From an uncultured beta proteobacterium (GTDB lineage: Bacteria > Pseudomonadota > Gammaproteobacteria > Burkholderiales > Burkholderiaceae_C), in contig CAIUDG010000002.1 in NCBI GenBank assembly GCA_903897925.1, positions 1 through 64,000 on the forward strand: a stretch of 64,000 nt of DNA. The letters run 5' to 3'. The notes below the pieces were generated by a model. That model searched no databases, was not told where the DNA came from, and saw nothing but the letters and a program-made list of their open reading frames with translations. The position numbers and the translations under genes are program-made. This document shows, piece by piece, positions 56,495 through 61,751 of this stretch. Numbering within the stretch: position 1 is the first letter of the stretch; each line of letters starts with the position of its first letter.

Positions 56495-56602
56495 GGTGCG
56501 GGTGCCAGGAGGCCGGGCCTAGGATAGCAGTGCCGCGGCGGCTTGGGCAATGTCCGCAGCGCGGGGCAGATTATGTGTGGCAGATTTTTGCTAACGCTAT
56601 GG

Positions 56603-56622
56603 CGATGCGGTACAGTGCATCG
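56603..56622. promoter_or_regulatory. inverted repeat upstream of phaM
   Basis: CGATGC (56603-56608) and GCATCG (56617-56622) form an inverted repeat with an eight-base spacer, 44 bases before the phaM ATG. Such a position would suit a repressor operator, for example of a PHA regulator, but no binding protein can be assigned from the sequence. Confidence 0.3.
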
Positions 56623-56665
56623 GCATTCAACGCACATTGAACAACAACTATTTGGAGGAGACGCC

Positions 56666-57412
56666 ATGAGTACATCGGACACGGCAGGATTTGCGAAGTT
56701 TGTCCCGGGTTTTGACTTTTTGCAAAATCTGGCCAAGGGTGCCGGTGGCATTTCGCACATGCCCAATCTGGCCAACTGGGTGGCGCCGACCCTCAATGTG
56801 GAAGAACTCGACAAGCGCATTGAAGAGCTCAAGAATGTGCACTTCTGGCTGGAGCAGAATTCGCGCGCGCTGGCCGCCACGATCCAGGCACTGGAAGTGC
56901 AAAAAATGACCCTGGCCACGCTCAAGGGCATGAATTTCAATTTGGCCGACGTGGCCAATGCGCTCAAACCGCGCATGCCCGAAGCCACCACCGCTGCGGC
57001 GCGCCCACAGGCGGCGCCCGAGCCTGCCGCTGCGCCGGCGGCCGAGGCGCCCGCCGCTGCGGCGTCGGCAGACAAAGCCGCCACGCCGGAGGCTGGCGCG
57101 GACGGCGCCAAGGCGGCGCTGTCCGGAATGGTGGATCCGATCAAGCTCTGGGGTTCGCTGACCCAGCAGTTCCAGCAAATCGCCGCCACTGCCGTCAAGG
57201 AAGCCGCCAGCCAGGCGGTTGAAATGGAAAAGGCACGCAGTGCTGCCGCCGCCAAGGTGGCCAGTGCCGTGCAGGCGGCGGCCCCCGCAGCGGCCCCCAA
57301 GGCGGCGGCCCAGCGTGCCGCCACCAAGGCAACGGCGGCGCCTGCCAAGAAAGTGGCCGCCAAACGCGCCCCCAGTAGCAAGACCGCCGCGCGAAAGACG
57401 GCCGGGCGCTAG
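56666..57412 (+). CDS. phaM: PhaM family polyhydroxyalkanoate granule regulatory protein
   Basis: A 248-residue protein. The N-terminal part FAKFVPGFDFLQNL, LANWVAPTLNVEELDKRIEEL and FWLEQNSRALAATIQALEVQ is the PhaM domain that binds and activates PHB synthase. The C-terminal third is Ala-rich and highly basic (PAKKVAAKRAPSSKTAARK), a histone-H1-like DNA-binding tail that lets granules attach to the nucleoid. The GGAGGAG site fixes the ATG at 56666. It implies that this organism stores polyhydroxybutyrate. FIST and MCP 3 genes follow closely on the same strand. Confidence 0.92.
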   Translation: MSTSDTAGFAKFVPGFDFLQNLAKGAGGISHMPNLANWVAPTLNVEELDKRIEELKNVHFWLEQNSRALAATIQALEVQKMTLATLKGMNFNLADVANALKPRMPEATTAAARPQAAPEPAAAPAAEAPAAAASADKAATPEAGADGAKAALSGMVDPIKLWGSLTQQFQQIAATAVKEAASQAVEMEKARSAAAAKVASAVQAAAPAAAPKAAAQRAATKATAAPAKKVAAKRAPSSKTAARKTAGR

Positions 57413-57420
57413 GCGCGGCG

Positions 57421-58671
57421 ATGAAACTTTTTCCCTTTGGCCACGCCACGCATCCGCAGTGGCAGATGGCGGCCGCACTGACGCTGGCGCAGCTGCGCGC
57501 GCACATGGCCTTGCCGCAATACGCGTCGCATCCGACGCTGGCCTTGCTCTACATCACCGACCACTACGTTGCCGAGGCCCAGGACATTCTGGAATACCTG
57601 GCCGCGGAGTTGCCGCTGGTGACCGACTGGTCGGGCACGGTCGGGGTTGGCATTTGCGCCAACAATGTGGAATATTTTGACGAGCCGGCAATGGCGGTCA
57701 TGTTGCTGGATTTGCCGGCCGACCAATACCGGGTGTTTTCCGGCGTGTCCCCGCTGGGCCTGGCGTTCGAGGCGCACACCGCGCTGGTCCATGCCGACGG
57801 TGCCACCCCCGACATTGCCGAACTGGTCCATGAGCTGGCGCACCGTACCGATGCCGGATTTTTGTTTGGTGGTCTGGCTTCAAGCCGCTCCACCAGCGTC
57901 CAATTTGCCATTGCTGCGGACGGCAATATCAGCGGTCACGGCGCTGCCAGTGGGGTGTTTCGCGGTGGCTTGAGTGGCGTCGCCTTCAGTTCCTCTGTGC
58001 ACATGGTTTCGCGTGTGACCCAGGGATGTGCGCCAGTGGCGCCGGCGCGCTGCGTGACGCAGTCGGATCGCAATCTGATTCTTCGCCTGGACGACCAACC
58101 CGCCTTGCAGGTAATGCTGGCTGACCTGGGCATCAGCCTGGAGCAGCCGCAGCAGGCGCTGGAAGTGGTGCGCGCAACCCTGGTCGGACTGGCGCCGGCC
58201 AGCGGAACCCTGGTGCAGCAGACCGGCAATTTTGGTAACGACGTGTTGGTGCGCCACATCATTGGGCTCGATCCGGCACGCTCCGGGGTGGCCGTGGCCG
58301 ATCTGGTTGAGCAGGGCATGCATGCTGCCTTTTGCCGTCGCAATTTGCAGGCTGCGCGGGCGGACCTGGTGCGCATCTGTGCCGAAATCCGGGAAGAGCT
58401 GGAATCGGAAGAACTCTCCAGCGCCGGTGTCGTGCCGCAGGCGGACGCGGCCGCAACGGGCTGGCAAGCGGCGCGCCGTATCCTGGGCGCGGTGTATGTC
58501 AGTTGCACCGGGCGCGGCGGTCCGCATTTCGGTGCGCCCAGTGCCGAGTTGCAGTTGCTGCGCCGCACCCTGGGTGAGGTGCCGCTGGTGGGCTTTTTTG
58601 CCGCAGGAGAAATTGCCCACGACCGCCTTTATGGCTACACCGGCGTGTTGACGGTGTTTACCGATGTTTGA
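57421..58671 (+). CDS. FIST-domain sensor protein
   Basis: A 416-residue cytoplasmic protein with FIST N and FIST C domains, without membrane segments. Landmarks are WSGTVGVGICANNVEYFDEPA in the first half and ARRILGAVYVSCTGRGGPHFG and LVGFFAAGEIAHDRLYGYTGVLTVF near the end. FIST domains are thought to bind small ligands such as amino acids and occur with signalling modules. Eight bases separate it from phaM and 18 bases from a chemoreceptor gene, all on one strand, so a shared operon and a signalling partnership with MCP 3 are plausible. The ribosome site is weak, which fits translational coupling to phaM. Confidence 0.88.
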   Translation: MKLFPFGHATHPQWQMAAALTLAQLRAHMALPQYASHPTLALLYITDHYVAEAQDILEYLAAELPLVTDWSGTVGVGICANNVEYFDEPAMAVMLLDLPADQYRVFSGVSPLGLAFEAHTALVHADGATPDIAELVHELAHRTDAGFLFGGLASSRSTSVQFAIAADGNISGHGAASGVFRGGLSGVAFSSSVHMVSRVTQGCAPVAPARCVTQSDRNLILRLDDQPALQVMLADLGISLEQPQQALEVVRATLVGLAPASGTLVQQTGNFGNDVLVRHIIGLDPARSGVAVADLVEQGMHAAFCRRNLQAARADLVRICAEIREELESEELSSAGVVPQADAAATGWQAARRILGAVYVSCTGRGGPHFGAPSAELQLLRRTLGEVPLVGFFAAGEIAHDRLYGYTGVLTVFTDV

Positions 58672-58689
58672 CTCTTTTCAGGCGGGCCC

Positions 58690-60495
58690 ATGAAAAATAT
58701 CGATCTCAAAATATCCAGCTTGCTGGCCCTGGGGTTTGGCTTCCTGGCGCTGCTGATTGTGCTGATGGGGGCCAGCACCCTGTGGCGCACGTCCCAGGTG
58801 TCGGAGGCATTTGGCACGGTGATGGAGCAGCGCTATCCGAAGATCAGCAATCTGCACCACATCAATGACAACATGAGCGACGTGGCGCGCTACCAGCGCG
58901 ACGCTTTGCTGCTGTCGGACGCCGACGACATCAAAAAGTTGCTCGACCTGATGGCGGCGGCGCAAAAAGACAATACCGAGCGCATGGCGGTGCTGGCGAC
59001 TTCGCTGCAGTCCGAGCAGGGCAAGCAGTTGTTCGCCGCGATGCAGGACTTGCGCCAGCAGTTCATACCTTTGAATGAGCGCTTCATGGGGCAGATTCGC
59101 TCCGGCAACCAGGAGCTGGCCAAGATCGGTCTGCTGGCCGAACTGGGGCCGGTGGAGCTGAAATATTTTGACGCCATCAGCCAGCTGGTCAAATACCAGG
59201 AAGCGCAGATGCAGTCTGCCAAGGCCGAGGCTGCCGCTTCGGTGGCCTCCCTGCGCACCACCTTGCTTCTGACCGGCGGTTTCGGTTTGCTGGCCGCCAC
59301 CATTGCGGCCTTGCGCATCATGCGCGCGGTGACGGCGCCGATCCATGAGGCGGTGGAAGTGGCCCGTGCCGTGGCTGCTGGCGACCTGAGTTACCCCGTG
59401 CATGACGGGGGCAACAATGAAACCGGCAAATTGCTGGGCGCGCTCAAGGATATGCAGAGTGCGCTGGTGACTGTGGTGGCGAATGTGCGCAAGGGCTCGC
59501 AAAGCGTGGCCCTGGCCTCGGCGGAAATCGCCCAGGGCAACCAGGACCTGTCGGATCGCACCGAGCGCCAGGCCAGCGCGCTGCAGCAAACCGCGTCCTC
59601 TATGCACGCCCTGGATAGCCAGGTGCACCACAACGCCGACAGTGCCAAACAGGCGAACCAGCTGGCCCTGAATGCCTCGGATGTGGCGGTGCACGGAGGC
59701 GAAGTGGTCGGCCAGGTGGTGCAGACTATGCGCGAAATCAACGAAAGTTCGCGCCGCATTGCCGACATCATCAGCGTGATTGACGGCATTGCCTTTCAGA
59801 CCAACATCCTGGCGCTCAATGCTGCCGTCGAAGCGGCGCGTGCCGGCGAGCAAGGGCGCGGCTTTGCTGTGGTGGCCTCGGAAGTGCGCAGTCTGGCTGG
59901 GCGTTCCGCCGACGCGGCCAAGGAAATCAAGTCGCTGATCAATGCCAGTGTCGAGCGCGTCGAACGCGGCAGTGCCCAAGTGGACAAGGCGGGCGAAACC
60001 ATGAACGAGCTGGTGGCGGCGATCCGCCGCGTGACCGACATTATGGGCGAAATCAGTGCCGCCAGCAGCGAGCAGTCGGGTGCCGTGGCGCAGGTCGGCG
60101 CCACCGTGACGCAAATGGACCACACCACCCAGCAAAATGCCGCACTGGTGGAACAAATGGCCGCCGCTGCCGGGAGCTTGCGCAGCCAGGCCAGCGATCT
60201 GGTGCAGTCGGTGGCCATTTTCAAATGGGGTGCCGGCGCTGAGGTGCCGCTGCCGAACTCCGATAGCATGCGTTTGGCCAAGTCGGGCACGCGCGCCGCT
60301 GCCGGCGCCGAGCGGCGCGTTCTGGCCGCACCCGTGGCGAAGACGGCCACGCTGGCACGCCCAGCGAAAACGCCGGCCGCCGCCACCCCGGGCCGTACTG
60401 CTAAAGCGCCGACACCGGCCCAGCTGGCCAAGGCGCCGCAACTGGAAGCGCGGGCCCGGCCAGCGGCGGACGACGACGCCTGGGAAACCTTCTAA
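58690..60495 (+). CDS. methyl-accepting chemotaxis protein (MCP 3) with C-terminal pentapeptide
   Basis: A 601-residue chemoreceptor: TM1 near 10-32, a compact (about 150-residue) helical periplasmic sensor of the 4HB type, TM2 near 188-212, HAMP, then the coiled coil with tip [20 protein letters not shown] near 372. The tail is Ala/Pro-rich and ends DAWETF, matching the CheR/CheB-binding pentapeptide (NWETF-like). The signalling domain is very similar to that of MCP 2 but the sensor differs. It follows the FIST gene by 18 bases with an AGGCGGG-type site. Ligand unknown; a FIST input is a possibility. Confidence 0.94.

Positions 60496-60512: not shown

Positions 60513-61751
<1,239 letters not shown>

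Follow-up and report, generated by a model that had tools for sequence, protein, structure and literature searches.

In Cupriavidus, PhaM activates PhaC1, links the granules to the nucleoid and distributes them to the daughter cells; passages of the review that summarizes this work also place the number of PHB granules per cell and their division among daughter cells under the control of PhaM, and state that the lysines of the PAKKA motifs matter in the C. necator protein (PMC9049629). FIST proteins are known from a different context. Those of the NosP type are heme-binding NO detectors that regulate a partner histidine kinase; in Burkholderia pseudomallei this kinase is NosK (PMC12570481), and the Legionella NosP controls NahK (PMC11237717; PMC8846402). 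The sequence-only reading of the DNA described here held that a signalling mechanism has yet to be worked out for FIST proteins. This does not stand for NosP, for which heme, NO and kinase are described (PMC12570481), and it stands in so far as a 2022 review still regards ligand binding and signal transfer by FIST as little understood (PMC8846402). The FIST domain of FBXO22 consists of three repeats, the third of which binds protein, and is reported to show no obvious ligand pocket (PMC11185555).

Here we describe a locus in which phaM is followed by a gene for a FIST protein and by a gene for a methyl-accepting chemotaxis protein (MCP). It lies in the window, the whole stretch of 64,000 nucleotides that was analysed, which belongs to the draft genome (4.18 Mb, 175 contigs) of an uncultured beta proteobacterium; the nearest named loci place this genome in the Rhodoferax neighbourhood of Comamonadaceae.

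Organization of the phaM locus

The features of the locus, in positions of the window, are the following.

56495..56665, + strand: leader between phaM and the divergently oriented marC (by eye)
56666..57412, + strand: phaM, polyhydroxyalkanoate granule protein, 248 aa (NF043076)
56774..56926, + strand: conserved core of PhaM (NF043076)
57421..58671, + strand: FIST protein, 416 aa, solo FIST_N plus FIST_C (PF08495, PF10442)
57535..58098, + strand: FIST_N domain (PF08495)
58102..58620, + strand: FIST_C domain (PF10442)
58690..60495, + strand: methyl-accepting chemotaxis protein, 601 aa, a lineage-specific neighbour outside the conserved pair
58702..59241, + strand: four-helix-bundle (4HB) sensor and membrane segments (PF12729)
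59317..59469, + strand: HAMP domain (PF00672)
59659..60126, + strand: MCP signalling domain (PF00015)
60478..60492, + strand: C-terminal AWETF (from the sequence)
60513..61724, − strand: tgt, convergent, closing the run (TIGR00430)

The genes phaM, FIST and MCP follow one another on the + strand with gaps of exactly 8 bases (phaM/FIST) and exactly 18 bases (FIST/MCP), and the convergent tgt lies 17 bases past the end of MCP. The compact run reported by the sequence-only reading was confirmed in its coordinates and in both gaps, and the gene identities proposed there (PhaM, a FIST protein, an MCP) are borne out by the profile matches given below.

The leader is the probable promoter region of phaM and carries, by eye, a GGAGGA ribosome site (56654-56659) ahead of the gene; no promoter-like site passed the scan in 56495..56665. 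Within the run, promoter-like sites on the + strand were found at 56808 (in phaM) and 57647 (in FIST), the whole scan having returned three sites versus 0.8 in shuffled sequences; these two sites could be internal promoters or chance matches. Neither the phaM/FIST nor the FIST/MCP junction holds a terminator-like site, and the scanned 7 kb contain six of them versus a shuffle mean of 6.3. One transcript across the run is likely, a grading kept at this level because of the promoter-like sites inside phaM and FIST.

PhaM and the FIST protein

The product of the first gene matches the NCBIfam PhaM core profile NF043076 with 87.2 bits (curated cut-off 38) and is the sole PhaM match in the genome, which also encodes the PHB synthase PhaC (two PhaC_N matches). 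Binding to PHB, PhaC and DNA would be expected of a PhaM protein; the C-terminus is, by eye, rich in lysine and alanine, with a PAKK stretch. Inspection by eye found no PhaM segment that is both exclusive and common to the families in which phaM is linked to FIST. Several candidate marks of the linkage were rejected: a second conserved PhaM motif of the WW..LQ.QF type is also present in families without FIST, the N-terminus peculiar to PhaM of one family (f1) is indistinguishable from kinship, and insertions in FIST track the f1 and f4 lineages, not the linkage (14 rows).

The second gene encodes a protein with FIST_N (93.1 bits, cut-off 23.2) and FIST_C (75.6 bits, cut-off 28.5) and no further Pfam match, which assigns it to the FIST family; many residues are invariant in the alignment, some of them polar. 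The structure was modelled with AlphaFold from 45 sequences, with a moderate mean pLDDT of 72. The best match of the model is FBXO22 (Foldseek E 7.6e-10), and superposition on four FBXO22 entries gave VIA Z values of 20.3-21.2 at 16-19% identity, showing that the model has the FIST fold; by sequence the match to FBXO22 is weak (E 0.016, residues 354-404). Cyanuric acid hydrolases and chorismatases rank next, with Z values of 9.1-10.6 over 227-241 residues. Taking the FBXO22 match together with the FBXO22 paper, protein binding would be a fair first guess for the solo FIST protein.

Two further FIST matches are present in the genome, three with that of the window, and from their gene setting both of these proteins appear NosP-like. 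At L174 (526-6408, contig C65 of the window's genome G000), FIST adjoins the gene for a hybrid histidine kinase with PAS and Hpt domains, behind which a response regulator of the HD type is encoded, and the FIST and kinase frames overlap if the first start codons are used; this is likely a NosP-type system of the genome. At L175 (4278-10165, contig C80), FIST, with a weaker FIST_N score, has a response regulator with an HD domain on one side and a hybrid kinase with several PAS domains on the other, which may be a NosP-like system that has diverged. In a tree of FIST proteins, which contained no named NosP sequence and in which the position of such long branches is unsure, the window FIST stands well apart from both (end branches of 5.7 and about 10). 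No gene run of the NosP type, that is, a histidine kinase with a c-di-GMP-type response regulator, was found at the window locus, where the neighbours are phaM, MCP and tgt. The best reading is that the window FIST is soluble, has the FIST fold and belongs to a different group from the NosP-like proteins.

Conservation of the phaM-FIST pair

Gene order was compared in 80 named loci, the best of 509 relatives found, a set that leans to close kin and in which genes were traced by similarity to those of the window only. FIST is preceded by PhaM in the same orientation in 78 of these 80 loci, so that the link between the two genes, which the sequence-only reading had drawn from spacing, proved far more conserved than one sequence could reveal. 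Among the genus loci examined for the gap, PhaM is likewise upstream of FIST in 78/80, the two sets sharing genomes and therefore not being independent. The two named exceptions have 152 and 377 bp of upstream sequence, and all four misses of both sets fall within 152-398 bp. The gap between phaM and FIST has a median of 29-30 nt in named and genus loci; it is at most 50 nt in 67 of the 78 named loci and reaches 796 nt in one, and overlaps, none longer than 4 nt, occur in 10/78 named and 6/78 genus loci.

A search of the 103 genomes of the genus gave FIST in 87 of them and PhaM in 90. The genus loci came from 84 genomes, 80 of which have a FIST match, leaving out seven FIST-bearing genomes and G081, which has PhaM and no FIST match. 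As to exceptions, G019, G025 and G064 retain PhaM without FIST, FIST is interrupted by stop codons in G024, and in G059 the absence of FIST means little because the sequence ends soon after PhaM.

In an even sample of 300 genomes across the order, PhaM is present in 173 and a FIST match in 85, the match being strong (E at most 1e-20) in 74 of these. Forty of the 74 strong loci were examined for the gap, and in 21 of them PhaM is directly upstream of FIST, at spacings between -7 and 188 nt; these belong to families f1 (nine), f9 (seven), f3 and f10 (two each) and f4 (one), so that the pair extends to four families of the sample besides that of the window, in which 10/10 genomes, the window's own counted, have it. 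On the FIST tree, with G196 scored as linked (PhaM beside), G110 (FIST without PhaM beside) ungrouped and the two paralogs of the window's genome excluded, the PhaM-linkage label requires 3 changes versus 14.2 when shuffled, none of 500 shuffles being as low. Both an early single gain followed by losses and gains in more than one lineage fit this distribution. PhaM and FIST also co-occur in the 300 genomes with an odds ratio of 2.9 (Fisher p 4e-4), which is no proof of association because kinship is uncorrected in this figure. The genes behind FIST vary widely in relatives (tgt, MCP and assorted others). The adjacency of phaM and FIST recurs far beyond chance, and phaM-FIST is well supported as a conserved gene pair; no report of it was found among the matches listed in open-licence PubMed Central.

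Each gene also occurs apart from the other. Of the 74 genomes in which a FIST of the window's group matches strongly, 18 have no PhaM match, and 19 of the 40 order loci have no PhaM upstream of FIST. A DUF599-type gene is near in eight of these 19 and a glutathione S-transferase (GST) gene in five, a single protein having been tested for each family name, and FIST with a DUF599-type gene is a second recurring neighbourhood. In loci of other families (L257, L260, L262, L264 and L266-L269) the DUF599-type membrane protein is encoded behind a FIST of the window's group, and in L260, L262 and L264 a GST gene also precedes FIST. Conversely, 117 of the 173 PhaM-bearing genomes of the order lack a strong FIST match; in family f7, which we would guess to be Cupriavidus-like, PhaM is present in 10/10 genomes and a FIST match in 0/10. 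Since FIST without PhaM and PhaM without FIST both occur, FIST is not granule-bound by definition.

The chemoreceptor gene behind FIST

The third gene product matches PF12729 (4HB), PF00672 (HAMP) and PF00015 (MCP signalling domain), all above cut-off; with it, the genome has 40 MCP matches. It ends in DDDAWETF, the AWETF of which we take to be a CheR/CheB tether-type pentapeptide; a W..F/Y end is found in 19 of the 21 neighbour MCP frames that reach a stop, that of the window included.

The phaM-FIST-MCP order, which was to be looked for in relatives, is kept as regards its first two genes and not as a trio: MCP is directly behind FIST in 10/80 named loci (L035-L041, L044, L056 and L058). The remaining 70 show none, though the sequence of some stops too early for a decision. 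Of 73 informative genus genomes, 34 have MCP behind FIST (two as remnants) and 39 show none there, some of these having just 1.3-1.8 kb downstream; five more are undecidable. These five short rows were kept in the genus FIST tree and outside the MCP counts, and the tree left out G024, whose FIST is interrupted by stops, and G042, with a row of 49 residues. In this tree the MCP-bearing genomes cluster in one part, and the MCP label takes 4 changes versus about 24 when shuffled, at least two of them forced by well-supported branches. The pattern fits one gain in a subclade, then losses; different MCP genes may instead have arrived repeatedly beside FIST. A later, lineage-specific addition behind phaM-FIST is the best explanation for the MCP gene.

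The neighbour MCPs resemble that of the window to very different degrees along their length. Identity in the signalling part is 71-80% for 17 of the 20 compared; in the other three (G002, G013 and G080) the frame is broken or incomplete. Some of the named loci repeat genus genomes. The sensor is 12-19% identical in 14 of the 20, 43-49% in four and 39% in G080, and the G013 remnant has no sensor. Over the same genomes FIST is 69-75% identical; the sensing end of the MCP thus differs, whereas FIST is little changed. In G019 (L234), phaM, MCP and tgt follow in order, FIST having been lost between phaM and MCP, and this locus can be viewed as a natural FIST deletion. MCP is reduced to a remnant in G013 and G080; the latter (L008) has lost most of the signalling domain and keeps the sensor part and the tether-type end in a frame of 279 residues. 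Six genus members (L185, L208 and L239-L242) have a tandem MCP pair behind FIST, followed by tgt in five; L239, without tgt, may end too soon.

Discussion

We tentatively propose, at somewhat below even chances, that phaM and FIST are an old tight pair, likely an operon, that MCP joined later, and that FIST is a partner of PhaM or of PhaM-PhaC which tunes granule initiation. Judging from the observed order and spacing, phaM and FIST would be co-transcribed as an operon and FIST would be made together with PhaM; it may then bind PhaM or the PhaM-PhaC initiation complex, and this binding would tune granule initiation, possibly in answer to a small ligand. The tie to PhaM would mean that an older protein is put to this use throughout a lineage. 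The conserved order with short gaps, the turnover of genes behind FIST, the presence of phaC and the fold match to the protein-binding FBXO22 domain speak for this reading. Against it count the FIST proteins of this group in genomes without a PhaM match, the retention of PhaM without FIST in G019, G025, G064 and all of f7, the want of a PhaM segment, by eye, confined to the FIST-linked families, and the promoter-like sites within phaM and FIST. That FIST is a dedicated PhaM regulator in Comamonadaceae and some related families, reading a cytosolic ligand or the state of a protein and timing and placing the start of PHB granules on the nucleoid, is a more specific version that we consider unlikely, if conceivable.

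The pair may instead have been kept by expression or ancestry only, FIST sharing the phaM promoter and having a role unrelated to granules, a doubtful yet serious possibility. The 18 of 74 strong-match genomes with FIST and no PhaM match, and the DUF599-type (8/19) and GST (5/19) genes near PhaM-less FIST, agree with such a role, but phaM-FIST stays in nearly every family genome examined while the genes downstream turn over, and we infer that neutral linkage is unlikely because it rarely outlasts such turnover. It is improbable that FIST is a NosP-type heme/NO sensor whose partner is encoded elsewhere. The solo FIST_N/FIST_C architecture is that of NosP, as far as the cited part of PMC12570481 goes, but no kinase or response regulator is encoded beside the window FIST, and the NosP-like setting in this genome is held by two other FIST genes very distant in sequence, long branches making this distance unsure.

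Both proposals of the sequence-only reading that involve the chemoreceptor lose ground when the distribution of the genes is considered. Its suggestion that FIST feeds intracellular status to the adjoining MCP could draw on the gap of just 18 bases and on the 34 of 73 informative genus genomes (two remnants among them) with MCP behind FIST; against it, 39 genus genomes and 70 of 80 named loci, some of them short, show no MCP beside FIST, G019 keeps MCP without FIST, and the MCP has a periplasmic sensor of its own that is highly divergent while FIST is about 70% identical. A relay of a cytosolic signal from FIST to MCP is therefore very improbable; FIST probably does not signal through the MCP, and a functional FIST-MCP unit was rejected as disfavoured by gene distribution. 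The idea that granule formation and taxis share expression is weak as well, this MCP being 1 of 40, patchy behind FIST and reduced to remnants in G013 and G080. We see hardly any chance that FIST is an enzyme with a fold of the cyanuric acid hydrolase or chorismatase type: such proteins are second-rank fold matches (Z 9.1-10.6) and the many invariant residues include polar ones, but the FBXO22 match is much stronger, the section of PMC11185555 cited describes neither enzyme activity nor a pocket for FBXO22, and the FIST model is moderate (mean pLDDT 72).

A partnership of FIST with PhaM remains our preferred reading. If a second protein is indeed kept beside PhaM across Comamonadaceae, work in hosts without FIST may hide a layer of control. 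The pair also offers a good point of entry to FIST proteins whose way of working appears to differ from that of NosP, and FIST as a PhaM regulator, if true, would be the first FIST found, in the open-licence literature, to be tied to a storage organelle and not to c-di-GMP or kinase signalling.

Comparison with known systems

The PhaM of the window resembles that of Cupriavidus necator in the PhaM core and the lysine-rich C-terminus and differs in having a FIST gene behind it. NosP, encoded with NosK/NahK and NosR/NarR, shares with the window FIST the solo FIST_N plus FIST_C architecture and a short gene run, but the neighbour of the window FIST is phaM instead of a histidine kinase. With FBXO22 the window FIST has the fold of the FIST domain in common, whereas it is bacterial and without an F-box. 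The MCP shares all domains and the tether-type C-terminus with 4HB-HAMP chemoreceptors that carry a CheR/CheB tether, and nothing in it is unusual among them.
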